Source: Gluconobacter potus (lineage in GTDB: Bacteria; Pseudomonadota; Alphaproteobacteria; Acetobacterales; Acetobacteraceae). Taken from it: a stretch of DNA of 64,000 bases. Positions 27,758-48,300 of the stretch are shown here, in pieces. The notes under the pieces were generated by a model, which worked only from the letters and a program-made list of their open reading frames with translations, was not told the origin of the DNA and did no database searches. Location of the stretch: assembly GCF_015244705.1 (NCBI RefSeq), contig NZ_JABCQF010000002.1, positions 62,001-126,000 of the forward strand, written 5' to 3'. The stretch's first letter is position 1. Each line of letters starts with the position of its first letter. Position numbers and translations under genes: made by a program.

Positions 27758-28052
27758 AGATGACCGGGGCAGGATGGAGAGCACGGTGACGATCGAGATC
27801 GACGGGTATCCGGTCATCGCGCGGATCGGAGAAACGGTGGCGTCCGCGCTGTTGCGTGAGGGCGCTTCCTGGAGCCGGACGACACCGGTCTCCGGTGCCC
27901 GGCGGGCTCCGTACTGCATGATGGGTGTGTGTTTCGACTGTCTGATGCTGGTCGAGGGAGAAGGGCTGGTCCGCGCGTGCCAGACGCTTGTCCGGGCCGG
28001 TCTGAAGGTGCAGCGGCAGACGGGGCCACGGAAGGTGGGGCCGTCATGCTGA
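27741..28052 (+). CDS. small [2Fe-2S] oxidase subunit (HcnA-type), third set
   Basis: 103 residues with cluster cysteines Cys59, Cys64, Cys67 and Cys80 (YCMMGVCFDC and VRACQ). The ATG at 27741 has AGGAGG five bases upstream, inside the preceding gene's last codons. The N-terminal extension is about 12 residues longer than in the 83-residue homologue at 12123. The stop overlaps the HcnB-type gene by 7 bases. Confidence 0.88.
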   Translation: MFRLLEDDRGRMESTVTIEIDGYPVIARIGETVASALLREGASWSRTTPVSGARRAPYCMMGVCFDCLMLVEGEGLVRACQTLVRAGLKVQRQTGPRKVGPSC

Positions 28053-29440: not shown

Positions 29441-30552
29441 AGGCCGGGCAGGCCACGACGGCCGTGATCGGCGGGGGGCTGCATGGTCTGGCCTGTGCGC
29501 TGGCTCTGGTGCAGCGGGGGCAGGACGTCGTGCTGTTCGAACGGTCATGGATCGGGCGTCGGGCGTCGGGCGCGACGGCGGCGGGTGTCCGGACGCTGTG
29601 GCGCGATCCGGCGGAAATCGGCCTTTCCCTTGAGGCGCTGGAGCGGTGGTACCGGATGGATGCGCTTGTCGGGGATGACTGCGGCTTTTGGGCGGGCGGT
29701 CAGATCAAGGTTGCCGAAAGTCATGCCGAGATGGAGGCACTGGCGGCCCGGGCCGCCCGGACGCGTGACCTCGGGTTCCATCATGAAGAACTGATCGATA
29801 CCCGGGAGCTGCGTCGGCTGGCCCCCATGATCAGTGAGCACTGTGTTGGAGGGCTCATCGCCCGTCGTGATGGGGCGGCTGATCCCCACCGGACGATTGC
29901 CGCATTCCGCCGGGCTGTTGAAGGGCATGGGGCCGTCATTCGCGAGGGGATCTCCGTCATGGCGCTTGAACCCGAGGCCGGGGGGTGGCGCGTGGTGACG
30001 GATGCCGGAAACTGGGCCGTGCGCCATGTCGTCAATGCGGCAGGTGCCTGGGGCGGTCAGGTCTGCCGGATGGTCGGTGAGGTCATCCGGTTTGGGTACA
30101 AGGCCTCCATGGTGTTTGTCACCGAGCGGGTGCAGCAGGCGTTCGGGCCGGTTTTCAGCACGGTCGGCCGGCCCCTGAGCTTCAAGCAGTCGTCGCAGGG
30201 AACGCTGGTTGTCGGCGGCGGGATCCAGGGTTGGGCCGATCTGGAAAAGGGGTCAACGCAGGTTGATTTTCGTGCCCTGTCCCGGGGGGCGGCAGCGGCG
30301 CAGGCGCTGTTTCCGGCCATCCGGAACGTCCAGATCGTGCGGGCCTGGACGGGGCTGGAAGGAAAGACTCCTGACCTTCTGCCTGTCATCGGGCCGTCCG
30401 CACGTGCTCCCGGCGTCTTCCACACATTCGGATTTTCCGGCCACGGGTTCGAGCTTGTTCCCCTGGTCGGGGAGATCATCGCCGACTGCATCATGCACGG
30501 TCGGTCCCGTTACGATATCGGCGCCTTCGATGTCGCCCGTCTCCTGACCTGA
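29437..30552 (+). CDS. DAO-family FAD-dependent oxidoreductase, third set
   Basis: 371 residues. The N-terminal FAD motif (AVIGGGLHGLACALAL) and C-terminal FAD contact (HTFGFSGHGFELVPLVG) are intact, with no interrupting stop. It may supply the catalytic subunit now that the copy at 26651 is interrupted, or it may be a second catalytic subunit with another substrate. The ATGA overlap with the HcnB-type gene suggests coexpression. Sarcosine/D-amino-acid-type oxidation of a C-N bond is the family role; the substrate is unknown. Confidence 0.87.
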   Translation: MKAGQATTAVIGGGLHGLACALALVQRGQDVVLFERSWIGRRASGATAAGVRTLWRDPAEIGLSLEALERWYRMDALVGDDCGFWAGGQIKVAESHAEMEALAARAARTRDLGFHHEELIDTRELRRLAPMISEHCVGGLIARRDGAADPHRTIAAFRRAVEGHGAVIREGISVMALEPEAGGWRVVTDAGNWAVRHVVNAAGAWGGQVCRMVGEVIRFGYKASMVFVTERVQQAFGPVFSTVGRPLSFKQSSQGTLVVGGGIQGWADLEKGSTQVDFRALSRGAAAAQALFPAIRNVQIVRAWTGLEGKTPDLLPVIGPSARAPGVFHTFGFSGHGFELVPLVGEIIADCIMHGRSRYDIGAFDVARLLT

Positions 30553-31042: not shown

Positions 31043-33469
31043 TCAGAAGGAAGACGAGATGTTGATCACAAAGGTCATGGGGGCTGCGAGGAAGTAGGCG
31101 GGTGTCGAGCCTGCGACGATCTGGCCGTTCGTGGCGCGTGTTGGTCGTGCATTGGTGGTGACAGTACTGATGCCGCCGAGATAGGCTTTGTTCGTCAGGT
31201 TCATGAAGTTCAGACGAAGGACTGGCTCGTGGAGGACAAACCATTTCGGGAAGTGGTAACCCAGACCCAGATCGACGGTTTTGTAAGCCGGCATCGACTG
31301 ATCGTCCATGAAGGTCGAGTACTGGGAATCAACATATTTGAAGGTTACGTTGGCGAAGAACGGTCCTTTTGTGTACATTACCCCGACATTGGCCATGAAT
31401 TTCGGACTGAAAACCGCAATTTTCCCGGCAGTCGGCAGGGTCCCCGAGGCTGTGTTGAAATTGTTGTCCATCGTGGAATGGAGATATTGCCCGTTCACAT
31501 AAGGCGCAAAGCCATAAAACGGATGAAGGGACGCTTCTGCTGTCACGCCGCGTACGGTCTGGCCGCCTGCTGCGATGGCGGTGTTGGTTGATGCGCCGTT
31601 GATGAAAGCCTGGGTCGTGACCTGGTGGTTCGTCAGGTTGGCATTGAAAAACGCTGCGTCGAAATTGAAAGCCCCGTAGTAACGGAAGCCCAGTTCCTCG
31701 CTGATCGTGTATTCCATACGGGCATTGTTAGAGCCACTCTGGGAGATTGCTCCAGTCGCGGTGCTGTAGATGTTGGGATAGGTGGATAGCGGGACGGGCG
31801 GTCGTGCGTTGGTTGTTCCGTTGATATAGACCTGCATGTCCTTGGTGATGTTGTACGACACCGATACGCGCGGCATGGGCTGTGTTATGGCCTGCGAGAA
31901 ATGATATTGTGGCCCGGCGAGCTGGTTGGTGCCGGAGACGTAGAACATCATTTCTTTCACGCCGGCAGTAATTTTCAGCTTGTCATCGAAGAAGCTCTGC
32001 GTGTCAGAGACGTAGAAATTGTTGATCATCGTGGACATCTGATACTTTGCGCCTGCGATGAGGCTACCATTCGTGGCGTAAAGCAGGTCCTTGCCCATAT
32101 AGCTGGACGCATTTCCGTTAATGTCCAGAGGTGTAACCCCGGATGTTGCGTCCATGTTCCAGTGATCGAACCAGTAACCGAAAATCAGGTGATTGCTGTG
32201 GATCGGATCATACTGGATATAGGTGTTGACCCCGGTCTCGTATTCACGCTGCGCCGTATTCGCCAGGCCATTGACGCGTCCGTTGACGAGCGTCAGGCTG
32301 GACGTATCCAGGGTGACGCGCTGGTCTCCCGAATACAGAGAGTCGGGGTTAAGCGAAGTCTGGCCCGGGCTGTTGGAGAAGTTCCAGTGGAAATAGGGCG
32401 TGATATGCAGGTTCAGGTGCCGCGCAAGCGAGAACTCGTTCTGGAATGAAATCAGAACGCTGTTACGGTGATAAAGATAGTTCTTCCAGTAGTTGGTCGT
32501 CACGCCTGGGGTATAAGTGGAAGCATAGTTTCCTACGGAGAAATTATTGTTCGTCTTTGCAGCGGTTTCGTAGGCTGCGAGCGTATAGGGATTGCTACGG
32601 GCATTCTTCCAGGCGTCGTAAGAAACGAACAGACTGCTGCGTCCGATGGAGCCCCACTCTTTGAGCGCCTTGAAGTCGACATGTGTTTTGTTGCTGCGTC
32701 CGGAACCCGCGAAGATGTCCGCGGCGGTATAGGACGCGGAACCGAACAGACGGATACCGGAATGACCGATATAGCCGCTGTCGAGCCGTCCGAATACGCG
32801 TTGCGCGCGGTAGGACCCCGCAGCATAGGAAATCATGCCACCGGCTTTTTCTGAAGGATCCCGTACGGTCTCGATCAGTTCACCACCCGAGGAGGACTGA
32901 ACCGGGTCGTTGATCCGCGAGGTGCTGGGAATCAGCGTGATGTCAGACAGATTCTCATTGTCGGCATAGGTTTCAGTATAGGGATTGTAATAGGCCTGAT
33001 CGACGCCCGGCACACCTTCGATCGTATAGCCCAGCTGTGTCTGCTGGAAGCCGCGGACACTGATCGTGTTGCGGATACTCAGACCGAACGCATCCTGCGT
33101 GCCGTAATTGACGCCCGGCAGGGTGGAGACGAGTTGCAACGGCGAGGCAATGGCTGATTTGCGGGCAATGGCCGCAGCCGTGATGGAGCTTGTGGATTCC
33201 GGGGCGACCTGACGTTTCATGAAACCACCCGCCATGCGCCGTCCGGCTGAGACATGGATCTGCTCGGGATCGGACTGCACCTTGACCGCGCTTGCCTGTT
33301 TGCGGGGTGTCGGGTGGGATGCGGGAGGGGCGCTATGCCCGCTGTGAGGCCGGATGCTCTTCGCGGAGGGCGTGGCACCCTGCGCGCCTATGGGGGACAT
33401 TGCACTGGCTGCAAACAGGAGTGTGGTTGCCGACAGGCGTCTGGAGAATGTGAAAGATGCCACTGACAT
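31043..33469 (-). CDS. TonB-dependent outer-membrane receptor (IclR block)
   Basis: 808 residues. The signal peptide spans about residues 1-31 (LLFAASAMSPIGAQGA), followed by a Ser/His/Pro-rich linker and a TonB-box-like EQIHVSAG. Plug motifs are LVSTLPGVNYGTQDAFG, ISVRGFQQTQLGYTIEGVPG and SSGGELIETV; the barrel ends in Phe (ISSSF). The plug is related to that of the nic receptor at 3555. It diverges from the MFS permease gene, with the conserved CATAGCTGTTAT motif in the shared upstream region. It likely imports the substrate handled by the hydantoinase genes, which is inference. Confidence 0.93.
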   Translation of the reverse strand: MSVASFTFSRRLSATTLLFAASAMSPIGAQGATPSAKSIRPHSGHSAPPASHPTPRKQASAVKVQSDPEQIHVSAGRRMAGGFMKRQVAPESTSSITAAAIARKSAIASPLQLVSTLPGVNYGTQDAFGLSIRNTISVRGFQQTQLGYTIEGVPGVDQAYYNPYTETYADNENLSDITLIPSTSRINDPVQSSSGGELIETVRDPSEKAGGMISYAAGSYRAQRVFGRLDSGYIGHSGIRLFGSASYTAADIFAGSGRSNKTHVDFKALKEWGSIGRSSLFVSYDAWKNARSNPYTLAAYETAAKTNNNFSVGNYASTYTPGVTTNYWKNYLYHRNSVLISFQNEFSLARHLNLHITPYFHWNFSNSPGQTSLNPDSLYSGDQRVTLDTSSLTLVNGRVNGLANTAQREYETGVNTYIQYDPIHSNHLIFGYWFDHWNMDATSGVTPLDINGNASSYMGKDLLYATNGSLIAGAKYQMSTMINNFYVSDTQSFFDDKLKITAGVKEMMFYVSGTNQLAGPQYHFSQAITQPMPRVSVSYNITKDMQVYINGTTNARPPVPLSTYPNIYSTATGAISQSGSNNARMEYTISEELGFRYYGAFNFDAAFFNANLTNHQVTTQAFINGASTNTAIAAGGQTVRGVTAEASLHPFYGFAPYVNGQYLHSTMDNNFNTASGTLPTAGKIAVFSPKFMANVGVMYTKGPFFANVTFKYVDSQYSTFMDDQSMPAYKTVDLGLGYHFPKWFVLHEPVLRLNFMNLTNKAYLGGISTVTTNARPTRATNGQIVAGSTPAYFLAAPMTFVINISSSF

Positions 33470-33570
33470 GATCTCCGTTTTCAGGGCTCGCAGCGGGTTG
33501 CGATCGGTAGAGCGGGTTTGCTGTCGTTACGATCTGGAAAGCATCTTCTGAAGGGCGCCGGAATCCAACA

Positions 33571-33588
33571 CATAGCTGTTATTCAAAA
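33571..33588. promoter_or_regulatory. shared operator-like motif, copy 1
   Basis: CATAGCTGTTATTCAAAA lies between the divergent TonB receptor and MFS permease genes. ATAGCTGTTAT is an imperfect dyad (ATAnCnGnTAT). Nearly the same sequence recurs at 39581 and 42693, in the other two divergent promoters of this block. The IclR regulator at 35009 is the likely binder. Confidence 0.65.
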
Positions 33589-33696
33589 ACTGCAGGTAAA
33601 TCAGTCTGGCGGCCGGCCCGGGTGTATAACTGATATACTGGTCGCACATCAGGAAATTGCATACTGTTGTCACGAACGTTTCGGAAGGGAACCAAC

Positions 33697-35007
33697 ATGA
33701 TGGGGGAACGACCGGGGAGGCAGGGAAGTTTGAGCGGAATTGACGCGGCCCTTGTCGATGAATTCGGGATGCGTCCTGTCCGGACGTCGTGGGGCGCTGG
33801 CTGGGTCATCCTTTTTGCCCTGGTGGCGCCGATCAATCTGCTTATGTCGCTGGACCGTCAGGCCATGACGCTGTCAGCGCCTCGGATACAGGCGGAATTC
33901 GGCTTCTCCCTCGTCCAGATTTCCATCATCATTGCCAGCGTATTGTGGACCTACGCGCTGCTTCAGCTTCCGGCCGGCGCCCTGGTAAACCGTTACGGTC
34001 CCAGGAAATGTCTGTTTGTCGGCTGTCTCGCCTGGTCTATCGCAACGATCCTGACGCCCATGGGCAGTTCGTTTGCCAGCTTCCTGCTGATCCGTCTTGC
34101 GATGGGGGTCGGACAGTCTCCTGACTGGTCTTCGAGCATCGTGACCATCAACAACTGGTTTCAGCCCCGTCGGCGGGCACGGGCGAACGCGGTTCTCTTG
34201 GGTTTTCTCTATCTGGGATCGGTGATCGGTGGTCCGATGCTGACGCAGATGACGGCACATTATTCCTGGAAACTCGGGTTTTACGTCTTTGGCGTGGGGG
34301 GCGTGATCTGGAGCTGCCTGTGGAGCATCTTCATGCGTGATCGGCCGGCGACGGAGGAGCCGACGGTCGAAGACATGAAGCCGGTGGCAGACCGTGTGCC
34401 CATGAAACGGTTTCTGCGCTCACGGCAGTTCTGGTTCATCGGCGTTCATTACATGTGCCTGCTGACCATCCAGTCCTTTTTCCTGACGCTGATGCCATTC
34501 TATCTCATGGATCACCGGCATCTTCAGTTCACGTCAATGGGATGGCTGTATTCCCTGCCATGGGCCTTCCTTTACGTTTCCGTGTTCCTGAGCGGCATGA
34601 TCGCGGACGCTGTGCTCAGGCGGACGGGGTCCGTGTGGAAGGCCCGGACGCCTATGGGCATGATCGGGACGTTCTGTTGCGGTACGCTGGTTCTGGTTGG
34701 CGATCATGTACAGAATGTGACGGGTATGATCGTGATCTTCGGTCTTGCCCTGGGTTGTTCAGGACTCAGCCAGATTTCCATCTGGACCTCCGTTCAGGAC
34801 CTTACGTCCGGACAGGCAGGGATTGTTGCCGGGTGGACGACATTCTGGGGAAATGCGGCCAGTGGTGTTGCGCCAATCGTCATGGTGTATATCGTCAGGA
34901 TGACAGGAAGCTGGTCCATGGCACTTCTTCTGCCATTCATTGCGGGGATGATCGGTGCGGTCTGTTGTTCGGGCACGCATCCGGAACGCCCCATTGAAGG
35001 AATATAG
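33697..35007 (+). CDS. MFS transporter, anion:cation symporter (phthalate permease-like)
   Basis: 436 residues with about 12 hydrophobic spans. MSLDRQAMTLSAPRIQAEFG in helix 1 and ALVNRYGPRK after helix 2 are typical of the ACS family, which takes up aromatic and other organic acids. The ATG at 33697 is preceded by GAAGGGA. It is the inner-membrane importer of the block, divergent from the TonB receptor, and directly followed by the IclR gene. The substrate is unknown; an organic acid or N-heterocyclic acid is plausible. Confidence 0.9.
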   Translation: MMGERPGRQGSLSGIDAALVDEFGMRPVRTSWGAGWVILFALVAPINLLMSLDRQAMTLSAPRIQAEFGFSLVQISIIIASVLWTYALLQLPAGALVNRYGPRKCLFVGCLAWSIATILTPMGSSFASFLLIRLAMGVGQSPDWSSSIVTINNWFQPRRRARANAVLLGFLYLGSVIGGPMLTQMTAHYSWKLGFYVFGVGGVIWSCLWSIFMRDRPATEEPTVEDMKPVADRVPMKRFLRSRQFWFIGVHYMCLLTIQSFFLTLMPFYLMDHRHLQFTSMGWLYSLPWAFLYVSVFLSGMIADAVLRRTGSVWKARTPMGMIGTFCCGTLVLVGDHVQNVTGMIVIFGLALGCSGLSQISIWTSVQDLTSGQAGIVAGWTTFWGNAASGVAPIVMVYIVRMTGSWSMALLLPFIAGMIGAVCCSGTHPERPIEGI

Positions 35008-35008
35008 C

Positions 35009-35830
35009 GTGGTGACATCGGTGTCGTTCGTCCAGGAGAGAGCAGCGACGCGGAAGACGCCGGTACAGGATGCTCCGGCTGCGAAGCAGGCGCAGTATTC
35101 CCAGAACTCCGATCGCGCGGCGCAGCTCCTCATGATTCTGAACGAACATGGGTCGCAGGGACTGGCGCTTGGCCGACTGGCCGAGCTTGTTTCAGCAGAA
35201 AAATCGGCTGTCCACCGGTCCCTGCAGGCGTTACGGAGGCATGGTCTGGTCGTGCAGGCGGCCCAGCGGGGACGCTATCGTCTTGGCCCGGCAGCTCTTG
35301 CGCTGGGACGGTTCAGGACAAGTCCCGTGGAGCGTATCCGGCAGTGGAAGCCCTATCTTGCTTTGCTGGGGCGGGAGTTCAGGGCTTCGGCGTTCCTGCT
35401 TGAGCGCACAGGTCTGGATGCGATCATTACCGACATGTACATCACCGATAGCCGTCTGCCCGTTCTGGGTCATGACGGGCTGGGGGGACGTCTGCCACTG
35501 GGTTACGGTATGGGAAGCACGGTCATTCTGGCGAATCAGGATCCGGACAATCAGATGGCGATCTTGCAGGCGAACGCATCGCGCTATCAGGAACTGAACG
35601 TTGACCTTGAGGCGTTGCAAGACCTCCTGAATCAGGTCCGTGAGGATGGGTACGATTCCCGACGCAACGCGGTGATCCAGGGCATATCGGGTATTTCCCT
35701 GCCGATCCTCGAGGGAGACGGGACATGTCGGGCGGCGGTGACCGTTGCCAAACCGACGGATGAACTGTCCGACCGCGAGGCCGGGCAGATCATCGAGAAA
35801 ATCAGGAGTTATATCGAGTTCCTGTCCTGA
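35009..35830 (+). CDS. IclR-family transcriptional regulator
   Basis: 273 residues from GTG at 35009, with GAAGGA about 8 bases upstream; it begins one base after the MFS stop. The winged HTH lies at about residues 35-100 (LGRLAELVSAEKSAVHRSLQALRRHGLVV), and the C-terminal effector domain includes GMGSTVILANQD and NAVIQGISGISLPI. IclR regulators control aromatic and organic-acid catabolic genes, as repressor or activator. The regulated set is suggested by the motif shared by the promoters at 33571, 39581 and 42693. Confidence 0.92.
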   Translation: MVTSVSFVQERAATRKTPVQDAPAAKQAQYSQNSDRAAQLLMILNEHGSQGLALGRLAELVSAEKSAVHRSLQALRRHGLVVQAAQRGRYRLGPAALALGRFRTSPVERIRQWKPYLALLGREFRASAFLLERTGLDAIITDMYITDSRLPVLGHDGLGGRLPLGYGMGSTVILANQDPDNQMAILQANASRYQELNVDLEALQDLLNQVREDGYDSRRNAVIQGISGISLPILEGDGTCRAAVTVAKPTDELSDREAGQIIEKIRSYIEFLS

Positions 35831-35862
35831 CGTTGGGACTCTGATCCTCCTTTGTCCTGCGA

Positions 35863-36576
35863 TCAAGCCATGTCTTCATCCTGACAGGTGAAGCAGAGTT
35901 CAGAAACGCTGGCCGTATTGGGCAGGTCGAGCGCTGTTGTGACCATGACAGCGATATCGGCAGGCTGTGTCATGTCCTGCGGTGTCCAGCCTGCGATGTC
36001 CCGCGTCATGTCTGTGGCGACGAAGCTGGGGCATACCACGATGGAGCGGATTCCGCTGTCCCAGCCAGTGCGCCGGATTGCTGCGGCAAGGCCGGACGTG
36101 GCGAATTTCGTGATGGCATAAGTGCTCGATCGCGCGGATTTGACGCGCTTTCCCGACATGGATGACAGCAGTACGACTCGCCCCCGGCCACCAGCCGCAA
36201 GGGCGTCCCACGCCGCCCGGACCAGCCGTGTGGGGGAGCGGACGTTGATCTGGAACATGCGATCCAGATCGGCATCGTCGGTTTCAAGGATCGACCCAGG
36301 AATCATGATTCCTGCGGACAGGATGACGGTATCGATCCGGCCGAACACACGCATCGTTTCTGCCACCCAGGCCTCTTCCGAAGCCGGGTTCGCAGCATCA
36401 TACGGACAGGTCAGATGGGGCGCCGTCAGCCAGCTTCCATCCACGTCCCGCATGCCGGCGCTGATGCGCCAGCCCTGATCTGCAAGACGTTCCGCAATGG
36501 CGCGGCCGATCCCCCGGGACGCGCCCGAGATCAGGGCAACGCGCCCGGAGGGAAGGGGAGAGCACTGTTCCGACAT
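35863..36576 (-). CDS. short-chain dehydrogenase/reductase
   Basis: 237 residues. NAD(P) motif GASRGIGRAIAERL, active-site Ser in LLSSMSGK and YxxxK as YAITK are intact. It is the last gene of a leftward run FAD oxidase, hydantoinase B, SDR with short gaps (51 and 22 bases), so it belongs to the same pathway, probably oxidising or reducing a hydroxy or keto intermediate. It converges with the IclR gene. Confidence 0.9.
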   Translation of the reverse strand: MSEQCSPLPSGRVALISGASRGIGRAIAERLADQGWRISAGMRDVDGSWLTAPHLTCPYDAANPASEEAWVAETMRVFGRIDTVILSAGIMIPGSILETDDADLDRMFQINVRSPTRLVRAAWDALAAGGRGRVVLLSSMSGKRVKSARSSTYAITKFATSGLAAAIRRTGWDSGIRSIVVCPSFVATDMTRDIAGWTPQDMTQPADIAVMVTTALDLPNTASVSELCFTCQDEDMA

Positions 36577-36598
36577 GATGTGATCTCCTTGTCCGGGG

Positions 36599-38152
36599 TC
36601 AGAGAACGTCCGGTGTTCCGTAGCCGCCCGCGCCGGGGGTTACGATTTCCACGATATCCGAGGGGGCGAGCGTGGCATTGCCACGGACCATCGGCGCCGT
36701 GCATTTCACCTGTGCCATACCACCCGGACCGCCGCCATTCAGTCCCCAGGGCGCCGTCGAGAGGCGGGACATGCTGGTGGAAACGTAACATTCCTCTTCT
36801 GCCCGGTAAACGCGACGCAGGCCCCGGCCACCGGTGAATTTACCCTTCCCCCCTGAGTCTTCGACCAGTTCGTATCGCAGCAGGGTCAGCGGGTATTCTG
36901 TTTCCAGTGCTTCGATGGGCAGGTTAGAAGTGTTGGTCAGATGGACCTGGACACCATCCAGACCATCCTTGTTATAGCGCGCACCGGACCCGCCGCCGAT
37001 GGTCTCGAGATAGATCCAGAACTTGTTGCTGCCCTTGCGTGTTCCGCTGAAGGTTGCGGAGCCGACGCAGCCATTGGTCGCGGCAGTGATGCTTTCGGGG
37101 CAGACAGGGGCCAGTGCCGCCATGATGACATCAACGACACGCTGGCATGTCGAAATCCGTCCCATGACGGCGGCAGGAAGGGCGCAGCAGAGCAGGGTTC
37201 CGGATTCAGCCTCGACATGCAGGGGGCGGGCCAGACCGGCATTGGGCGGGATCGTCGGATCAACGATCGATTTTATGGCGTAATACACGGTGGCCAGCAG
37301 AGCCGAACGCGTCATGTTGAGATTGGCGCGGACCTGCGGCGGGCTCTGAAAGGCGAGTGTCATTTCATCGCCCGTAATCGTGATCCGGCAGCCGATTTCC
37401 ATGATCTCGGGATGGTCGATGGTCTCGAACAGGTCGGAGGCCGTGTAGGTGCCATCCGGAATGGCTGCGATGCCGGCGCGCATCTTGCGTTCGGCATAAT
37501 CCTGAAGGGTCAGACCTGCGCTGATCATGACATCAACGCCGTATTTCGTGCAGAGGCTCTTGAAACGGCTCACACCGAGCCGGTTTGCGGCCATCTGGGC
37601 GCGAAGGTCGGAGATCCGCTCGTCCGGCACCTGACAGTTCAGGAGGATCAGGTCCTGCACGTCCTGTTGCAGAACCCCCTGCTTGTAGAGCTTGATCGGC
37701 GGGATGCGAATGCCTTCCTGGAAGATATGGGCATCACCCCGATCGGCAAAATCCGAATGATGGGCCGTGTTGATGGCCCAGGCCACGAGCGCACCGTCCA
37801 TGAAAATCGGTTCGGCCAGCACGATGTCGGGCAGATGCGTGCCGCCGCCTACGAAGGCATCATTGCCGATGAACACATCGCCCGGTTCGATCTGGGCTGT
37901 GGGATAACGGTCCATGACGAGGGGGATGAATTCGATGAACGACCCCAGATGCATCGGGATGTGTTCGGCCTGACACAGCGTGTAGCCGAACTGGTCGAAC
38001 AGGGCGGTGGAGCAGTCCCGGCGTTCCTTGATGTTCGTTGAATAACTGGTGCGGACGAGAGCCTCGCCCATCTCTTCCACGACGGAAGCCAGTGCGCTTC
38101 CGATGATTTCGACGGTGACAGGATCGAGGGCGATGCGCTGGAAAGAGGTCAT
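36599..38152 (-). CDS. hydantoinase B / N-methylhydantoinase beta-type subunit (HyuB)
   Basis: 517 residues, full length for HyuB. The N terminus (DPVTVEIIGSALASVVEEMGEALVRTSYS, shown here only as the opening family block), CSTALFD, HHSDFADRGDA-like and GGGSGARYNKDGLDG stretches define the family. HyuB works with HyuA, encoded divergently at 39673, in ATP-dependent opening of hydantoin, N-methylhydantoin or 5-oxoproline-type rings. It is 51 bases downstream of the flavoprotein gene. The exact substrate is not readable from sequence. Confidence 0.92.
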   Translation of the reverse strand: MTSFQRIALDPVTVEIIGSALASVVEEMGEALVRTSYSTNIKERRDCSTALFDQFGYTLCQAEHIPMHLGSFIEFIPLVMDRYPTAQIEPGDVFIGNDAFVGGGTHLPDIVLAEPIFMDGALVAWAINTAHHSDFADRGDAHIFQEGIRIPPIKLYKQGVLQQDVQDLILLNCQVPDERISDLRAQMAANRLGVSRFKSLCTKYGVDVMISAGLTLQDYAERKMRAGIAAIPDGTYTASDLFETIDHPEIMEIGCRITITGDEMTLAFQSPPQVRANLNMTRSALLATVYYAIKSIVDPTIPPNAGLARPLHVEAESGTLLCCALPAAVMGRISTCQRVVDVIMAALAPVCPESITAATNGCVGSATFSGTRKGSNKFWIYLETIGGGSGARYNKDGLDGVQVHLTNTSNLPIEALETEYPLTLLRYELVEDSGGKGKFTGGRGLRRVYRAEEECYVSTSMSRLSTAPWGLNGGGPGGMAQVKCTAPMVRGNATLAPSDIVEIVTPGAGGYGTPDVL

Positions 38153-38203
38153 GATGCAGGATCTCCGATGCGTCGTCAGGGTAGTGAGAGAAGACAGGAA
38201 AGG

Positions 38204-39499
38204 TTAGCCAAAACGCGTGAAACTGAAGGGGGCCGGATCAACAGAGGTTGTCACGTTCCGGACAATCTCAGACAACAGCTTTCCGGCACCTGGTCCGATA
38301 CCGAAGCCATGACCGGAGAAACCCACGCCCAGAACCAGCCCCGGAATTTTTTCGGCACGGTCGATGATGGGCACGGCATCCGGCGTGACGTCGATCATCC
38401 CACCCCATCGTTCCACTTCACGCATGGTGCGGAAGGGCGGAAAATCGCGTTTGATGATCCGTGCGGCTTCTTCCAGCAGGCCGTGCGACGGCTCGGGGTC
38501 CAGAGTGCGGATCTTTTCGAAAGGCGTGACACTGTCGGGTGTCCAGCGACGCTCCATTCTCCATTCGTCCAGAAATGCGCGGCTCAGACGCAGGCGCAGC
38601 TCCTTGTGATTCTTTAGATAGGAGCCGGCAAACTGGCGCAGCTGACGGAAGGAATCCGGGGTAATTTCCGATACGCTCGCGTTCCGGCGACTGATATTGT
38701 AGCCGCCCTGAATGTTGCGCCGGAAGGCAAAGTCGCTGCCGCCCACCGTTTCTTCCGGAGCGCCTTCCACATTGTCCACGCGCATGACGCTGCCGAGCAC
38801 ATTGAGCGAGGGAAGGTTGATGCCTTCATTCCCCCCGAAAAGCCGCGACCATGCGCCGCCGGCGAGGACGACAGTGCTGCATCTGATGCGGCCACGTTCG
38901 GTGACGACGCCCGAGATCCGACCGCCCTGCCGATCCAAGGCGCGGACGGCGCAATGCGTCAGAATTGCCGCGCCGTGCTCCCGCGCGGCTTCGGCGACAG
39001 CCGATGCAGCCATTGTCGGCTCAGCCCGGCCGTCCGTTGCGCAGAAGAGACCCCCCTGGAAGGCGCGCTGTGATCCCGCTGCCATCTCGGCCGTCCGGGC
39101 ACCATCCATGAGTGTTGTCTGGATCTGGTACCGATCGGCGATATCTTTCCAGTTCCGGAATTCGTCCAGCTGCTTTTCGTTATCGCAGGCATAGAGGATG
39201 CCGCACTGGCGGAAGCCGGTTTCGCGTCCGGTCAGTCTGTTCATCTCGCGCCAGAGATTGAGACTGCTCATTCCCAGAGGGAGTTCACGTTCGTCGCGTC
39301 CCATGACGCGCGTCCAGCCCCAGTTGCGGCTCGACTGCTCGCCGCCGATAACACCTTTTTCGCAGAGCGCGACGGAAACGCCCGCACGTGCCAGGAAAAA
39401 GGCGGTCGTCACGCCGATAATGCCGCCGCCAATCACGACGACATCGACCGTTTCGGGCAGGTTTTCATCCGATTTTACGGGAATGACCTTCGGCGCCAT
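38204..39499 (-). CDS. DAO-family FAD-dependent oxidoreductase
   Basis: 431 residues. FAD motif VVVIGGGIIGVTTAFFLARAG lies near residues 20-40, followed by SSRNWGWTRVMGRD, an SSRNxG-type segment of DAO-family amine oxidases. The C-terminal FAD contact is GVGFSGHGFGIGPGAGKL. It heads a leftward operon with HyuB and SDR and diverges from HyuA; the motif copy at 39581 lies in the shared promoter. It could demethylate or deaminate the amino acid released by ring opening, as sarcosine oxidase does after N-methylhydantoin hydrolysis. That role is inference. Confidence 0.88.
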   Translation of the reverse strand: MAPKVIPVKSDENLPETVDVVVIGGGIIGVTTAFFLARAGVSVALCEKGVIGGEQSSRNWGWTRVMGRDERELPLGMSSLNLWREMNRLTGRETGFRQCGILYACDNEKQLDEFRNWKDIADRYQIQTTLMDGARTAEMAAGSQRAFQGGLFCATDGRAEPTMAASAVAEAAREHGAAILTHCAVRALDRQGGRISGVVTERGRIRCSTVVLAGGAWSRLFGGNEGINLPSLNVLGSVMRVDNVEGAPEETVGGSDFAFRRNIQGGYNISRRNASVSEITPDSFRQLRQFAGSYLKNHKELRLRLSRAFLDEWRMERRWTPDSVTPFEKIRTLDPEPSHGLLEEAARIIKRDFPPFRTMREVERWGGMIDVTPDAVPIIDRAEKIPGLVLGVGFSGHGFGIGPGAGKLLSEIVRNVTTSVDPAPFSFTRFG

Positions 39500-39580
39500 C
39501 TTTTTTCGTCCTCGAACTGAAAACAGTGTCGTTTTTTATCGATGACAAGACGTGCCATGACTCTTTGCGGCGTGTCTTGG

Positions 39581-39600
39581 CATAGCTGTTATTTCAAAAC
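39581..39600. promoter_or_regulatory. shared operator-like motif, copy 2
   Basis: CATAGCTGTTATTTCAAAAC lies between the divergent FAD oxidase and HyuA genes. It matches the 33571 copy in all but one inserted T. Confidence 0.65.
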
Positions 39601-39672
39601 GGCTCTTATTCCGCGCCGAAAGAGATGGGTATCGTGAACAGATCACGACGCAATCAATGAGCGGAGCGGAAA

Positions 39673-41733
39673 ATGGCGTGGAGACTTGGTGTCGATTCTG
39701 GTGGAACGTTCTGTGACATCTGTCTTTATGATACGGAATCGAAAAGGTTTGCGATCTGGAAAGTCTCTTCGACGCCGGATGATCCGTCACGCGGAATTCT
39801 GACCGGTATCACCGAAGGACTGAAAACGGTTTCGGCCGAAACCTCGGATATCAGTTTTCTGGGCCATGGGACGACTGTCGGCACGAATGCGCTCATCCAG
39901 CACAAGGGCGCGCTGACGGGGTTCATTACCACGGATGGCTTTCGTGATCTTCTGGAGATTGGCCGCCAGCAGCGTCCGAGCCTCTATGATACGCAGGAAG
40001 ACAAGCCGGAAACCCTGGTGGCTCAGGCCCTGCGGTTCGAGGTGCCGGAACGGGTGCGGCACGATGGCACGGTGGAAGTCGCGCTTGATGAGGAAAGTGT
40101 GCGCGACGCGGCACGGGCCCTGAAAAAAGCCGGCGTCAAGGCGGTGGCGATCGGCTTTCTGTATGCATTCATAAAGCCGGAGCATGAGCGCCGCGCCTAT
40201 GAGATCGTTCGGGAGGAGTTTCCCGAGGCCTTTACCTGCGCAAGCTATCAGGTCGCCCCTGAGTTCCGTGAATATGAGCGCTTCTCGACGACGGCGGTGA
40301 ACGCTTATCTCGGCCCGGTCATGGAAGTCTATATTGCCCGTCTGGGGGCACGTCTTCTGGAGCTGGGTCTCTCGGTTGCGCCCCGGATTACGCAGTCCAA
40401 TGGTGGTGTCATCAGTTTCGATCTGGCGCGCGCCCTGCCGGTGCGAACGGTTCTTTCGGGGCCGTCCACCGGTGTTGTCGCGGCGCAGGCCATCGGACGG
40501 GTCATCGGCATCCCCAACATCATCACCTTTGACATGGGGGGAACCAGCACGGACGTTGCGCTGCTGAAGGATGGCACCTGCCGTCTGACCGGTGAAGCGG
40601 AAGTGCATGGCTATCCCGTCAAGGCGCCTATGCTGGATATCCATACGGTCGGTGCAGGGGGCGGTTCGCTGGCCTATCGCGACAATGGCGGCCTGCTGAA
40701 GGTTGGTCCCCAGAGCTGCGGCGCTTTTCCTGGACCCGTCTGCTACGATCAGGGCAACCTCACACCCTCCACAACCGACGCCAACGTCGCATTGCAGACC
40801 CTCAATCCGGAATTTCTGCTGGGCGGCCGTATGGCGATCCGGCGGGATCTGACCATGGAGCGCATTGGTCTTCTGGCCGGAGAGCTCGGCATGGACGTGA
40901 TGGCGACGGCGCAGGGCATCATCTCTGTCGTGACCGCCAACATGGCACGTGCCGTGCGTGTCATCAGCGTGCAGAAGGGCCATGATCCGCGTGACTATGC
41001 CCTGATGGCGCTTGGTGGAGCAGGGCCGCTGCACGCCGTGCGTCTGGCGCAGGAGCTGGACATGAAGCGTGTCATTATCCCCCTGACACCAGGGGTGATG
41101 TGCGCACTTGGCCTGCTGCTGACAGATCTGCGGGCGGATTTCTCCAGTACGCAGATTATGGTCGCGCATCCGGGCATGTACACCGATATCGTGTCGATCT
41201 TCCGGGACCTGCTGAAACAGGCCAACCACTGGTTTGCTCAGGAAAATGTCCGTGAGGAAGATCGCGGACTCAGGATGAGCGCGGATATGCGCTATGTCGG
41301 GCAGAATTACGAACTCGCGGTGGACATGCCGGTTTCGATTGATGCCATGAATGATGAGAGTGTGACCGACATGGTCCGCAGCTTCATCGCAACGCATGAA
41401 GCGCAATACGGCTTTGCCTCACAGACGGACCCTGTTCAGTTCGTGACATTCCGTATCGAGGCGACAGGCAAGGTGGAAAAAGCCGCATTCACGGCACATC
41501 CGGATGCCGGACCTGATGCGCAGTCCGCCATTACAGGCGCGCGCGACGTGTGGTTTCCTGAGACGGAAGGCTTTGTGTCATGCCCGATCTATGAACGCAG
41601 TCTGCTCAGGAGTGGGAATGAGGTCGCCGGGCCGGCGATCATCGAACAGATGGATGCGACGACAGTATTGCCGCCGGGAACGCGCGCCATCGTCGAGCCA
41701 CATCTCAATCTCATTGTTGAAACGGGGCGTTAA
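39673..41733 (+). CDS. hydantoinase A / oxoprolinase-type subunit (HyuA)
   Basis: 686 residues, full length. Actin-like ATPase-fold motifs are present: GVDSGGTFCDICLYD at the N terminus, FLGHGTTVGTNALIQ near residue 75, and FDMGGTSTDVALL near 285. The mid-protein GAGGGSLAY and C-terminal GPAIIEQMDATTVLPPG are also family blocks. It forms the ATP-hydrolysing partner of HyuB (36599-38152). The gene pair is split onto opposite strands around one promoter instead of the usual hyuA-hyuB tandem. Confidence 0.93.
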   Translation: MAWRLGVDSGGTFCDICLYDTESKRFAIWKVSSTPDDPSRGILTGITEGLKTVSAETSDISFLGHGTTVGTNALIQHKGALTGFITTDGFRDLLEIGRQQRPSLYDTQEDKPETLVAQALRFEVPERVRHDGTVEVALDEESVRDAARALKKAGVKAVAIGFLYAFIKPEHERRAYEIVREEFPEAFTCASYQVAPEFREYERFSTTAVNAYLGPVMEVYIARLGARLLELGLSVAPRITQSNGGVISFDLARALPVRTVLSGPSTGVVAAQAIGRVIGIPNIITFDMGGTSTDVALLKDGTCRLTGEAEVHGYPVKAPMLDIHTVGAGGGSLAYRDNGGLLKVGPQSCGAFPGPVCYDQGNLTPSTTDANVALQTLNPEFLLGGRMAIRRDLTMERIGLLAGELGMDVMATAQGIISVVTANMARAVRVISVQKGHDPRDYALMALGGAGPLHAVRLAQELDMKRVIIPLTPGVMCALGLLLTDLRADFSSTQIMVAHPGMYTDIVSIFRDLLKQANHWFAQENVREEDRGLRMSADMRYVGQNYELAVDMPVSIDAMNDESVTDMVRSFIATHEAQYGFASQTDPVQFVTFRIEATGKVEKAAFTAHPDAGPDAQSAITGARDVWFPETEGFVSCPIYERSLLRSGNEVAGPAIIEQMDATTVLPPGTRAIVEPHLNLIVETGR

Positions 41734-41757
41734 GTCCTGCTTCAACACGTGGTTGAG

Positions 41758-41791
41758 AGGTCCTCTCCGGGCTTGCTTCCGGAGAGGACCT
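41758..41791. terminator. long hairpin between convergent genes
   Basis: Perfect 13-bp stem AGGTCCTCTCCGG / CCGGAGAGGACCT with an 8-base loop, between hydantoinase A and the aldo/keto reductase. There is no T tract on either side, so its role as a classical terminator is uncertain; it may block or stabilise RNA ends from both directions. Confidence 0.55.
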
Positions 41792-41798
41792 GAAGGCT

Positions 41799-42617
41799 TC
41801 AGAAATCTGCTGTCAGAGGGTCAGGACCGATGCGGCCGTCGGGACGGTCCATCGTCGCGATCTGCGCCATATCATCCGCGTCGAGTGTGAAATCGAAAAC
41901 GGCGATGTTCTCGGCGATTCTGGAGGGCGTGACTGATTTCGGGATCACGATCAGGCCGCTCTGAAGGTGCCAGCGGATGATGACCTGCGCCGGAGATTTG
42001 CCGTGCTTCTCCGCGATTTTCCCGATGATCGGACTGTTCAGCGTGCGCCCCTGTCCAAGCGGGCTCCAGGACTGGGTATGGATGCCTTTTGAGGCGTGAA
42101 AGGCCCGCAGGCTGTGCTGCTGGAATTCGGGATGGAGTTCGATCTGGTTGAGCGCCGGGGTGACACCCGTTTCCCCGATGATCCGTTCAAGATGGGTTTG
42201 CGTGAAATTCGAGACACCAATCGCGCGAACGCGGCCTTCGTCCCGCAGACGGATCATGGCCTTCCAGCTTTCGACGTAGAGATCGAGGCGTGGTGCCGGC
42301 CAGTGGATGAGGTAGAGATCAACTGATGTCCGGCCCAGCTTGCGGCTGCTCACGTCGAAGGCGCGGAGGGTTTTGTCGAAGCCCTGATCCGTATTCCAGA
42401 GCTTGGTTGTGAGGAAAATTTCGGGATGTCCTTCCAGGCCCGTTCCGACGCCTTCTTCATTGCCATAGATCGCGGCGGTATCGACGGCGCGATAACCGGC
42501 AGCAAGCGCGCATTTCACGACATCCGCCGTCTGATCGACGGGAGTCTGCCAGACACCCAGCCCCAACTGGGGCATATCGATGTCCCGGCCCAGGGAAATA
42601 ATGGGTTGTTCGGTCAT
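41799..42617 (-). CDS. aldo/keto reductase (2,5-diketo-D-gluconate reductase-like)
   Basis: 272 residues from MTEQPIISLG, the usual AKR5-type start. The catalytic tetrad is visible: Asp and Tyr in VDTAAIYGNE, Lys in TTKLW and His in LIHWPAP; IPKSV near the C terminus binds NADPH. It is close to the DkgA/DkgB group by motif. It diverges from the RidA-family gene with the block's conserved motif between them, so it is probably in the same regulon. The in-pathway substrate is unknown. Confidence 0.92.
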   Translation of the reverse strand: MTEQPIISLGRDIDMPQLGLGVWQTPVDQTADVVKCALAAGYRAVDTAAIYGNEEGVGTGLEGHPEIFLTTKLWNTDQGFDKTLRAFDVSSRKLGRTSVDLYLIHWPAPRLDLYVESWKAMIRLRDEGRVRAIGVSNFTQTHLERIIGETGVTPALNQIELHPEFQQHSLRAFHASKGIHTQSWSPLGQGRTLNSPIIGKIAEKHGKSPAQVIIRWHLQSGLIVIPKSVTPSRIAENIAVFDFTLDADDMAQIATMDRPDGRIGPDPLTADF

Positions 42618-42692
42618 GATGTGGATTCCTGTGCTGAAAGGTCCAGCCCGTGTTGTTCCATGGCGCTGGAAGAGGACCAAGGCGGTTTTATG

Positions 42693-42704
42693 TATAGCTG
42701 TTAT
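42693..42704. promoter_or_regulatory. shared operator-like motif, copy 3
   Basis: TATAGCTGTTAT lies between the divergent aldo/keto reductase and RidA-family genes. It keeps the ATAGCTGTTAT core of copies 1 and 2 but not the trailing CAAAA. Confidence 0.55.
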
Positions 42705-42773
42705 GGAAGGAAAAAAACGCTGCGATGAGCAATACTTTTTGATGAGATCTCTTCCTTTCTCGGAGAAAGACAG

Positions 42774-43196
42774 ATGCCGGATATCATCAAGGTCAAATCA
42801 GGAAGCATGTACGAAGAGCGCAACAGCTATTCGCGACTGGTGGCAGTCGGTGACATGCTTTTCGTCGCCAATACGGCAGGTGTTGATTACAGAACGCGGG
42901 AAATCTCGCCTGACGTCGCGGTCCAGGCCCGGCGTGCGCTTCAGACGATCGAGGGGGCACTGAATGCGGTGGGATCGTCTCTCGCCGATGTGGTGCGAAT
43001 CATCACCCATGTTCCGGATCGTGCGAACATGGCTCCCGTGGCTCTGGTTCTGGGAGAGGTTTTCAAGGGGATTGATCCGGCCGCGACAATGGCCTGCACA
43101 CCTCTGGCGCGCGATGATTTGAAGGTGGAATTTGAAGTCACGGCAATCCGCGGTGTTTCGAAACAGCCGCAGGAATATCTCAGGATTTCGGTCTGA
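42774..43196 (+). CDS. RidA/YjgF-family protein lacking the archetypal Arg
   Basis: 140 residues. The fold markers are RLVAVGDMLFVANTAG and DVVRIITHVPD, and the C-terminal LKVEFEVTAI. Archetypal RidA (2-iminobutanoate deaminase) has a catalytic Arg in PARSxV; the aligned position here reads PAA (about residue 104), so this is a Rid4-7-like member rather than a typical imine deaminase. Such members often sit in pathways for nitrogen compounds and oxidised amines, consistent with neighbouring FAD oxidase and hydantoinase genes. It ends against a hairpin shared with the LysR gene. Confidence 0.9.
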   Translation: MPDIIKVKSGSMYEERNSYSRLVAVGDMLFVANTAGVDYRTREISPDVAVQARRALQTIEGALNAVGSSLADVVRIITHVPDRANMAPVALVLGEVFKGIDPAATMACTPLARDDLKVEFEVTAIRGVSKQPQEYLRISV

Positions 43197-43208: not shown

Positions 43209-43233
43209 GAGGCCATTCGTCCTGAATGGCCTC
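43209..43233. terminator. hairpin between convergent RidA-family and LysR genes
   Basis: Perfect 10-bp stem GAGGCCATTC / GAATGGCCTC with a 5-base loop, overlapping the LysR stop codon by two bases. No T tract follows. Confidence 0.5.
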
Positions 43234-44233
43234 AGAGAACGATCTCTTCCGCTGCCTGTAAAGCACCATTCAGGGAAGACGCCGGGATGGCCCGTATGTT
43301 TGGCTGTGTGTTCCCGGGAAGTTGGGGCCAGAGAAAATCGTCCCGAACAGTTTCGATCATTTTCTTGATCTGGGTGACAAGTCCGGCGTTGACCGGGCGG
43401 CTCTGGGACGCTGCGAGTGCGATGGTGCGGTAGAGTGCGGGTTTCGTGATCAGTCGGCACCGAAAATAGCCGGAGAGAATTTCGCGTTTCAGAGATGCTG
43501 CCGGCAGAAGGGTCGCTGCCATGCCGGATGAAACCACCTGGAGCATGGAAGAATAGGAATCACATTCGCATTGTACAGTCAGATCAAGCGCATTCCGGTT
43601 GGCCCATGTGGTGACGATCTGCCGCAGGCCATGGCGTTTCCCAGGTAAAACTAGCGGGATTCTGGCCAGTTCAGCGGCCTCGATCGTCGCATTGATGTCT
43701 GATGTTTCCAGCCCGGCAGGACAAGCCTCAATGAGATAAAGGGGTTGCGAAAGCACGGCTTCCAGATTGGGATGAGCAAGTCCTGGCGCATCGTAAAGCA
43801 GCGCGACATTCAGCGAACCGGCATTCAGGCTGTTCAGCAGATCGCCGTTACAGCCGTCGAGAAAGCGGAGTTCGGCATCCGCATGGGCGTCGCGCAGGGC
43901 ACGGGCGAGGGGGGGGAGCAGAATGGCGCTGACGCTCGCAGGCATTCCGATGGCAGCAGAGTCCAGGTGGTCCGGTGAAAGGTGGCGAATCTGGTTCTGT
44001 GCTTCCTGGATCTGGCGAATGATCGTGGCGCCAAGCTGCTTGAGGCGTTCCCCCGCCTGCGTCATGACGACGCCTCGACCATTTCGATAAAGAAGCGGAA
44101 CTCGCAGTTCAGTCTCCAGCTCACGAATATGACGGCTGAGCACTGGTTGAGGGCGCCCTAACTGAACAGACGCACGAGAGAATGACCCACATTCCGCTAC
44201 AGAAATGAAATATTCGAGATCCCTGACATTCAT
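43232..44233 (-). CDS. LysR-family transcriptional regulator
   Basis: 333 residues. N-terminal HTH: VRDLEYFISVAECGSFSRASVQL, then GRPQPVLSRHIRELE. The effector domain includes GMPASVSAILLPPLARAL and VSSGMAATLLPAA. No divergent gene lies directly upstream; 200 AT-rich bases and a decayed IS element precede it, so its target may have been lost or lies in the block to its left. Confidence 0.92.
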   Translation of the reverse strand: MNVRDLEYFISVAECGSFSRASVQLGRPQPVLSRHIRELETELRVPLLYRNGRGVVMTQAGERLKQLGATIIRQIQEAQNQIRHLSPDHLDSAAIGMPASVSAILLPPLARALRDAHADAELRFLDGCNGDLLNSLNAGSLNVALLYDAPGLAHPNLEAVLSQPLYLIEACPAGLETSDINATIEAAELARIPLVLPGKRHGLRQIVTTWANRNALDLTVQCECDSYSSMLQVVSSGMAATLLPAASLKREILSGYFRCRLITKPALYRTIALAASQSRPVNAGLVTQIKKMIETVRDDFLWPQLPGNTQPNIRAIPASSLNGALQAAEEIVL

Positions 44234-45390: not shown

Positions 45391-48300
45391 TTATGAACCT
45401 GCCGGATCGAGACCTTTCGATCCTTTGATTACGACATTTACACGATGGGTCAGGCCGTCATTTTCCATATCGATCGGCCGGGTTAATGCAACGAGCGCAT
45501 CGTCAACCTGCATGAAGAGATCTCCCTGGCAGACATGGTCGGGGTTTTCTATCCGGATGTGATATTCTGACGTTTTCCAGCGCAGGCGCACTTCATATGC
45601 GGGCCATCCCGCAGGAATGCGCGGGTTCATCAACAGCTGGTTTTTTTCAATCTGTATCCCCAGCAACGTCTCAACTCCGATGCGCTGCATCCATCCTGCC
45701 GATCCTGTGTACCAGGACCAGCCACCCCGCCCGACATGCGGGCTGGAAGAGTAAACATCTGCAACAACCGCATAGGGTTCGACCTTGTAACGGTCTGCCG
45801 CCTCCCGATCGCGGGAATGATGAATCGGATTGAGTGTCGAGAACATCTCATGCGCTGCATCGCCCTCTCCGAGCAGAGCGGTCGCCATAACCGTCCAGAG
45901 GGCCGCGTGCGTGTACTGGCCGCCATTTTCCCGAATGCCGGGCGGGTAGCCTCGGATATAGCCGGGGTCCGGCTCTGAAACATTGAACGGGGGCGTCAGG
46001 ACCATGATGATCTCTTGTTTCAGATCAACAAGCTGTTCCTGAACGGATCGCATGGCCTGCCGCGCACGATCGGGAGAGCCTGCCGCTGAAATCACGGCCC
46101 ATGACTGGGCAATGGCATCGATGCGCCCTTCACTGTTGGCGTGACTGCCCAGAGGGCTTCCGTCATCGAAATACGCCCGCAGATACCACGCACCATCCCA
46201 CGCGGCTTCCAGAGCGGTTTCAAGCTCCGCCATAACGCGGGTCCACTTCTCGACATGTTCAGTGTCCTGTCGTGCGCGGGCAAGGGGAAGGAACGCTGAC
46301 AATGCCGCATGCGTGAACCATCCCAGCCAGATGCTTTCCCCTTTTCCGGCTTCGCCAACACGGTTCATGCCGTCATTCCAGTCGCCGGTTCCCATCAGCG
46401 GAAGGCCATGGGCACCTCTCTGCAGACTATGATCGAGCGCAAGAATGCAGTGCGTATAAAGAGAGGCCGTATCGTCCGTAACTTCCGGCTGGAGAAAGCG
46501 CTCATGCTCCCCATCCGCCAGGACAGGCGCGCTGAGGAAGGGTATTTCCTCATCCAGCACCGCCGCATCCCCACTGACACGGACATATTGCGCGACGGTA
46601 TAGGCGAGCCAGGCACAGTCATCCGAAATCCTCGTGCGAACACCATTCCCCTTCTGGGGGAGCCACCAGTGTTGCACGTCTCCTTCCGGAAACTGCCGGG
46701 ATGCCGCCCGGAGCAGATGCTCCCGGACCAGCTGCGGAGCCGCCAGAACGAGAGACATTCCGTCCTGCAACTGATCCCGGAATCCATAGGCGCCACTGGC
46801 CTGATAGAAACCCGCCCGGGCCCAGATACGGCTGGACAGGGACTGATACAGCAGCCAGCCATTGAGCATGATATCCATGGCGCGGTCCGGCGTCTGGACC
46901 TGCACGGTTTTCGTGATCGTCTCCCATCTGCGATGGACAGCCTCCAGAACGGCATCGAGATCTGCCGCTCTGTACTGCCGGATTAGCTGGCGGGCGTGTT
47001 CGGCATTCCGTCCCTGACCCAGCAGGAAAAGGATTTCGGCGCTTTCCCCGGCTTCAAGCGTGACGACAGTCTGCAATGCGGCACAGGGATCAACGCCGGC
47101 CCCGATAATGCCCTCAAGCGGTCCACCCCGGATAATGGCTCTGGGGGCGGAAAGGGTGCCGTTCGGACCAATGAACGTGCACCGGTCATCTGTGCTGGAC
47201 GTCTGCTGACCGGCCAGATCCGCAAAGGCGACCTGCTCGCCAAACGTCTCGCCCCATCTGTTCCTGACGAACAGCGCGCTGGATTCCGGGTCCTGCTCCG
47301 TGAAAACAAAGGGTGCCGTTGTGCTGCGGGACTGTCCGAGCACCCATTCGGTATAGGTCGTGACCCTCAGGGTCCGGGCGCGCGAGGATGTATTGGTCAG
47401 TTTCAGTCTGGAAATCCGGATGGGATCTTCAGGCGGCACATAGTGCAGCAGGCTCGAGACAATTTCGTTGGCGTTGCGCTCGAACCGGCTGTATCCGCGC
47501 CCGTGCCGGCAGACATAAACGGCATTGTCGTCCGGGCATACGGCGGCCACCGGGGACCAGAACTGCCGGCTCTCCTCATCGCACAGGTAAAACGCCTCTC
47601 CGGTCGGGTTGACGACCGGATCATTGGACCAGGGGGTCAGCTGGTTCTCCTTGCTGTTTTCGGACCAGGTATAACCGCTGCCTTCCGCAGAGACCTGAAA
47701 ACCGAAATGAGGGCTGGAAACGACATTGACCCAGGGCGCAGGAGTGCGGGTCCTGCCCCGGATGATGACGGCATATTCCTGCCCGTCAGACGTAAAGCCA
47801 CCATATCCGTTCGCCAGTTCCAACACAGGCAGTTCAGGCGTTTCCTGTGCTCCGTGGTAGGGACGGCAGGGACGCTGGACGGCCTGCACGGCTTTCGAGC
47901 GCTGCTTCATTTCGAGCCGGGTGATCTGATGTTGCAGGTTCCCACCCTTGCCCGTCAGAACGACGCAGGCCACCGAGAACAGAAGCTCCCTGACCGTTTC
48001 CGGCATGAGCGTCCCACGCAGGAGACGCACGCTTCCCGGCTGCCCGGAAGAGCGGACCAGGGCTTCAAGAGCGTGCTGCAGATCCTGCGCATAAGACGCC
48101 GAATGGTCGTTCAGAATAACGAGATCAAAAGCCAGCCCCTTGAAGCTCAGATAGTCATGGGCCGTGAGAATGCTTCGCGCGAGGTCGAAATCCTCGCTTT
48201 CGGCAATGACCAGCAGCAGGATCGGCAGATCGCCGGAAATTCCCTGTCCCCACAGATCCGCCTGTTTGCCCGCCCCGCGTTTGATGCGGGCAGCCGATGC

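Follow-up and report, generated by a model that had tools for sequence, protein, structure and literature searches.

Which protein reads the 11-bp element ATAGCTGTTAT, which recurs in three divergent promoters of a gene cluster in Gluconobacter potus? The cluster lies in a stretch of 64,000 nucleotides (contig NZ_JABCQF010000002.1, positions 62,001 to 126,000 of the forward strand), the whole of which is called the window here. An earlier note on this DNA had taken the element as the mark of one small catabolic regulon and had named the cluster's IclR-family protein as the binding protein. A regulon built on one operator common to three divergent promoters is well supported by the uniqueness and conservation of the site, while the case for IclR is weakened. 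From the sequences compared, we consider it reasonably probable that the motif is the operator, a dyad of consensus ATANCWGNTAT, of a LysR-type regulator encoded at 43232-44233, a gene adjoining the Rid-family gene that the earlier gene list had omitted.

Three exact copies of ATAGCTGTTAT were found in the window, all on the plus strand, together with a further dyad beside the first.

operator 1, 33572..33582, plus strand: ATAGCTGTTAT in the gap between the TonB receptor and MFS (major facilitator superfamily) genes, identical in G. frateurii and two more Gluconobacter
operator 1b, 33626..33636, plus strand: ATAACTGATAT in the same TonB/MFS gap, 54 bp from operator 1
operator 2, 39582..39592, plus strand: ATAGCTGTTAT in the FAD (flavin adenine dinucleotide) oxidase-HyuA gap, aligned over six species
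operator 3, 42694..42704, plus strand: ATAGCTGTTAT in the AKR (aldo-keto reductase)-Rid gap

Each exact copy sits inside a divergent pair (TonB receptor/MFS, FAD oxidase/HyuA and AKR/Rid), as had been described, and CATAGCTGTTAT followed by CAAAA a few bases on is right for copies 1 and 2; the third site had also been recognised, but at 42693, the base preceding its true start. The divergent gaps span 33470-33696, 39500-39672 and 42618-42773, and since each of operators 1-3 is separated by about 75-120 bp from either start codon flanking its gap, one regulator bound mid-gap could switch both genes of a pair. The chance expectation for ATAGCTGTTAT at one mismatch or fewer was 0.13 in the window, and at least three copies were reached in none of 100 shuffles. 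Frequent copies genome-wide would have counted against the regulon; on both strands of the 3.42-Mb genome, three exact copies were found, all in this window, and no other. Operator 1b, unmentioned before, is enclosed by a 15-bp palindrome, GTATAACTGATATAC, and gives the TonB/MFS gap two dyads, a pair kept in G. frateurii (1b at L006 8675); the TonB/MFS gap of genome G314 likewise holds two (L094 1537 and 1616). Operator 3 still precedes Rid in G314 and G330, with AKR adjacent in neither. A sigma-54 reading of TTGGCA before operator 2 was dropped by eye, TTGGCA being missing at operators 1 and 3.

Variants in related loci (ATAGCTGATAT, ATATCTGATAT, ATACCTGATAT and ATAACTGATAT) have in common the 11-bp form ATA-N-C-W-G-N-TAT. 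This degenerate dyad occurs 13 times in the genome, four times in the cluster and nine times scattered, with 11 sites for the reversed control; seven of the nine scattered sites lie inside frames that run for 250 codons or more without a stop in the 1.4-kb stretches examined. Among the LysR-positive loci scanned, a dyad without mismatch was present in each gap upstream of MFS, oxidase/HyuA, AKR or Rid, with a sole departure in the oxidase/HyuA gap of G330, which holds a one-mismatch copy, ATAGTTGTTAT. In alignments of the gaps the operator sites stood out as blocks conserved between the closer species, with G330 (in the oxidase/HyuA alignment) and G381 (in another gap alignment) put out of register by MAFFT.

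The LysR search covered samples of 26 genus (Gluconobacter), 397 family and 385 class genomes. We took G007 as G. frateurii NBRC 3264, G017 as Gluconobacter sp. P1C6_b, G020 as G. sphaericus NBRC 12467 and G354 as Gluconacetobacter azotocaptans, and loci L004, L005 and L006 as belonging to G017, G020 and G007 and L007 to G354, each counted once; L095 overlaps L007 and represents the same place in G354. The 11-mer was present in 13 of the 26 Gluconobacter genomes, with 24 copies in total where the reversed control pattern gave 60, so that single copies mean little. At least three copies occurred only in G000, G007, G017 and G020, and these same four genomes carry close orthologues of both IclR (75-100% identity) and LysR (83-100%). 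LysR orthologues were found in these four genus genomes and in six of the 397 family genomes (1e-70), two being shared, which gave eight distinct genomes. The class-wide draw returned LysR at 1e-58 only in the genome of the window itself, and the plasmid collection held no relative of either regulator (thresholds 1e-50 and 1e-25). HyuB was far more widespread, with a match at 1e-120 in 75 of the 397 family genomes; its identity was 80-84% in three genomes of other genera (G314, G354 and G381) and 69% in G330.

The dyad stands in target promoters of all eight LysR-positive genomes, and a cognate LysR gene accompanied the operator wherever it was found at cluster target promoters, G127 being the exception. 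An IclR orthologue (at least 59% identity) was found in seven of these eight genomes, and LysR is the better candidate because it goes with the dyad in 8/8 rather than 7/8; when 249 family genomes were searched with IclR, the remaining matches at 1e-20 were at most 37% identical. The discriminating genome is G330, which gave no IclR match at 1e-15, while LysR, Rid, oxidase/HyuAB and dyad persist. In its 5.7 Mb there is a single exact dyad, necessarily the copy at L119 11205 just upstream of Rid-LysR, and the genome is very GC-rich (mostly 93-97% GC at third positions). Behind its oxidase gene come a peptide-type ABC transporter and then Rid and LysR in the same direction, HyuAB lying on the opposite side. 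The TonB, MFS and IclR proteins of the window had no match in either of the two G330 loci, so that IclR apparently moves together with the MFS gene, and LysR together with the operators. A search started from the G330 LysR placed the cluster LysR of G314 (7.9e-78) nearer than the next paralogue within G330 itself (4.4e-57); among 299 family genomes three matched at 1e-55, namely G330, G314 and G083 (the last at 1.6e-56, 43%), and within the genus of G330 LysR was found in G330 only (1/15 genomes at 1e-55).

If LysR is the reader, it would bind these operators and activation would come with a pathway metabolite. The regulon would then cover the receptor, MFS-IclR, oxidase-HyuB-SDR (short-chain dehydrogenase), HyuA, AKR and Rid. 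IclR itself would be a target, its gene overlapping the MFS gene, and would probably serve as a secondary, uptake-linked regulator.

Several results weigh against LysR as the reader. The discrimination from IclR hangs on a single genome, G330. The dyad consensus was drawn up after the sites had been seen, so that column counts are biased toward the dyad form. Between the window and G330, the winged-helix part of LysR is 68% identical and the remainder 41%, which counts in favour of LysR, but stronger conservation of the helix-turn-helix is usual among LysR proteins. The window, G314, G381 and G330 showed no dyad at one mismatch or fewer ahead of the LysR gene; the LysR upstream region of G354 holds two one-mismatch copies. 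G127, without a LysR homologue in the fetched loci, has an exact dyad upstream of its oxidase, overlapping a palindrome, TGGTATATACCA, and in G091, likewise without a homologue in the fetched loci, an exact dyad (L163 2954) lies roughly 9 kb away from the oxidase. Palindromic ATA/TAT half-sites are known from NAC and BenM. Passages of PMC5002191 describe LysR sites as T-N11-A or CTATA-n9-TATAG. When 16 dyad sites were tested in the dyad-centred register, the T and A of T-N11-A were present at one of 16, and the best fit of CTATA-n9-TATAG had 3-4 mismatches in the three operator gaps of the window. The half-site letters ATA/TAT agree with LysR sites at a spacing four bases shorter. As far as those passages go, the system resembles LysR regulators of the NAC, PcaQ and CatR/BenM type in its palindromic ATA/TAT half-sites, in an operator midway between divergent promoters and in a small catabolic regulon, but differs in having ATA-N5-TAT instead of n9-n10 and a regulator gene that is not divergent from any target (PMC5002191).

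The first proposal, in which the motif is bound by the IclR protein of the MFS-IclR pair and all nine genes are under its control, is now unlikely, although the IclR gene comes straight after the MFS gene, downstream of operator 1, and an orthologue accompanies the dyad in seven of the eight dyad genomes. Palindromic sites near uptake and ring-opening genes are also a likeness to IclR-type systems, and passages of PMC8222616 describe IclR sites as palindromes with the consensuses GKTYCRYW3-4RYGRAMC and TGRAACAN1-2TGTTYCA. The dyad fits neither: the best match to either consensus (group 1 or group 2) anywhere in the three operator gaps of the window had 4-5 mismatches, and in G330 the dyad and several targets persist where the orthologue is missing. 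In the MFS gap of G354, and in that one genome only, a separate group-2-like palindrome, GGAAACACATGTTTCC (two mismatches, L007 8589-8604), lies close behind the dyad, which would suit an IclR with a site of its own. Sites resembling group 1 occur upstream of LysR in G314 (two mismatches, L094 16348) and in G. frateurii (three mismatches, L006 8604), and where LysR is lacking, the distant IclR proteins next to HyuA are accompanied by such sites in five of nine gaps, as set out below.

More doubtful still is that a third regulator encoded elsewhere binds the motif, or that both proteins, LysR and IclR, bind there at sites that overlap. Neither family's published pattern matches the 11-bp dyad, and the two regulator genes occur together in seven of the eight genomes, but the confinement of the triplet within the genus to cluster carriers fits a regulator carried with the cluster. 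A promoter element in place of an operator is very improbable: copies of the 11-mer with at most one mismatch in target gaps do share one orientation, toward MFS, HyuA or Rid, but the motif is a dyad with variable symmetric positions (the sites having been chosen for the dyad), its exact copy is found nowhere else in the genome and its position is midway between divergent starts. Chance similarity, for which the 24 copies of the 11-mer in 26 Gluconobacter genomes might speak, is already refuted by the uniqueness and conservation data, with four of 13 genome dyads falling within 9.2 kb (binomial probability about 4e-8, computed after the fact) and the dyad in target promoters of eight genomes, and scarcely deserves credence.

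We return to the LysR-type regulator as the favoured reader, and to clusters that lack it. For controls, 16 regulatory gaps were picked from the fetched LysR-less loci, and none of the 16 had a dyad at one mismatch or fewer; L126, one of the 16, had two two-mismatch matches outside its gap. Six LysR-less loci (L109, L112, L113, L121, L123 and L125) were left out of this selection, and when they were scanned whole for ATAGCTGTTAT (at most one and at most two mismatches) and for the dyad, the sole match was in L125, the G127 copy described above; L163, with the exact dyad of G091, also stood outside the 16. Nine of the 16 control gaps lie between HyuA and an IclR of 30-34% identity. A group-1-like IclR site (at most three mismatches) was found in five of these nine, compared with a mean of 0.72 in simple shuffles, and none of 500 shuffles reached five. 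The palindrome TGGTATATACCA occurs near the oxidase in three genomes (G036, G091 and G127), at L125 13270, L108 3848, and L111 830 and 5271 in LysR-less oxidase/HyuAB clusters. Two of these three genomes (G127 and G036) have a GntR gene in the fetched region, and the G127 protein, when scanned, gave GntR and UTRA domains. Some LysR-less clusters thus appear to carry other regulator-operator pairs, of IclR type and GntR type, beside related enzymes. Taking these comparisons together, we tentatively suggest, at somewhat less than even likelihood, that a LysR-type regulator recognises a compact ATA-N5-TAT dyad instead of T-N11-A, and that a core of FAD deaminase and HyuAB has had regulator and operator swapped as a unit (LysR, IclR or GntR/UTRA) across the Acetobacteraceae, the transporter changing too.

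The nine genes of the earlier note were all present and correctly named at family level. With the LysR-type gene, they are:

TonB-dependent receptor, 31043..33469, minus strand: Pfam Plug PF07715
MFS permease, 33697..35007, plus strand: best NCBIfam model the D-galactonate transporter subfamily, below cut-off
IclR-family regulator, 34955..35830, plus strand: HTH_IclR and IclR_C domains; overlaps the MFS gene
SDR, 35863..36576, minus strand: final gene of the oxidase-HyuB-SDR run
HyuB, hydantoinase B/oxoprolinase subunit, 36599..38152, minus strand: Pfam PF02538, 2.6e-166
FAD amine oxidase (DAO), 38204..39499, minus strand: by sequence, closest among solved structures to an L-amino acid deaminase
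HyuA, hydantoinase A/oxoprolinase subunit, 39673..41733, plus strand: nearest solved relative by sequence N-methylhydantoinase 7hk5
AKR, 41799..42617, minus strand: nearest model DkgA, below cut-off
Rid-family protein, 42774..43196, plus strand
LysR-type regulator, 43232..44233, minus strand: HTH_1 and LysR_substrate domains; proposed reader of the operators

The MFS open reading frame (ORF) opens at TTG 33667, with its first ATG at 33697, and the AKR ORF opens at TTG 42680, with its ATG at 42617. The IclR start is uncertain, alignment with the more distant orthologues beginning near residue 46. The LysR gene is convergent with Rid in the window. In G354, a long near-perfect inverted repeat, perhaps a terminator, was noticed by eye between HyuA and LysR (about L007 7386-7430).

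One probable catabolic system had been proposed for these genes, of which the regulon stands and binding by IclR does not stand so firmly. Their families suggest that a cyclic amide or something hydantoin-like is taken up, and the order is probably ATP-dependent ring opening by HyuAB, FAD oxidation (deamination) of the released amino acid by the oxidase, action of Rid on an imine or enamine, and carbonyl reduction by SDR/AKR. By their domains, HyuA and HyuB belong to the ATP-dependent hydantoinase/oxoprolinase group, and the nearly full-length HyuA and HyuB domains liken them to HyuAB, 5-oxoprolinase, caprolactamase and acetone carboxylase enzymes; unlike caprolactamase, they scored 581 and 239 bits in the NCBIfam equivalog models, below the cut-offs of 1000. 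The oxidase had 5fjm as its best solved relative by sequence (3e-73). Passages of PMC4433059 state that an arginine is needed for imine hydrolysis by RidA and that about 10% of RidA proteins have serine, and they describe Rid genes clustered with FAD amine oxidases, a likeness to the Rid and amine oxidase genes joined in one regulon here; this arginine is not clearly conserved here, its register being ambiguous in the alignment, where R113 of the window protein corresponds to S in G330. Passages of PMC5053998 describe the lao-cccA-ridA cluster of G. diazotrophicus, apparently another oxidase cluster.

Among the papers listed on hydantoinase, LysR, RidA, caprolactam and Gluconobacter regulons, no title or abstract opening described this regulon. 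The analysis sets the bounds of a catabolic regulon of acetic acid bacteria that has no name as yet and corrects its likely regulator from IclR to LysR. Clusters with related enzymes and differing regulator-operator pairs form a natural set useful for studying regulator exchange, and binding of the 11-bp dyad by LysR, if real, would depart from the usual LysR box.

A sarcosine-oxidase-like FAD pair adjoins the receptor gene (window 27929-30552), and an FAD pair 42-47% identical to it lies behind the SDR gene in G. frateurii (L091 12446-14928) and G314 (L094 5737-8237). Behind IclR in Ga. azotocaptans is a row of ORFs (L007 10997-15328), which by eye look like a glutamine synthetase, a glutamine amidotransferase and GlxC/GlxD-like parts of a glutamate synthase, a set known from N-methylglutamate routes. 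Further along the window, 45391-53913 encodes a protein of 2840 residues; its domains, GH94 and glucoamylase-like, are of the kind that cyclic beta-1,2-glucan synthases have.

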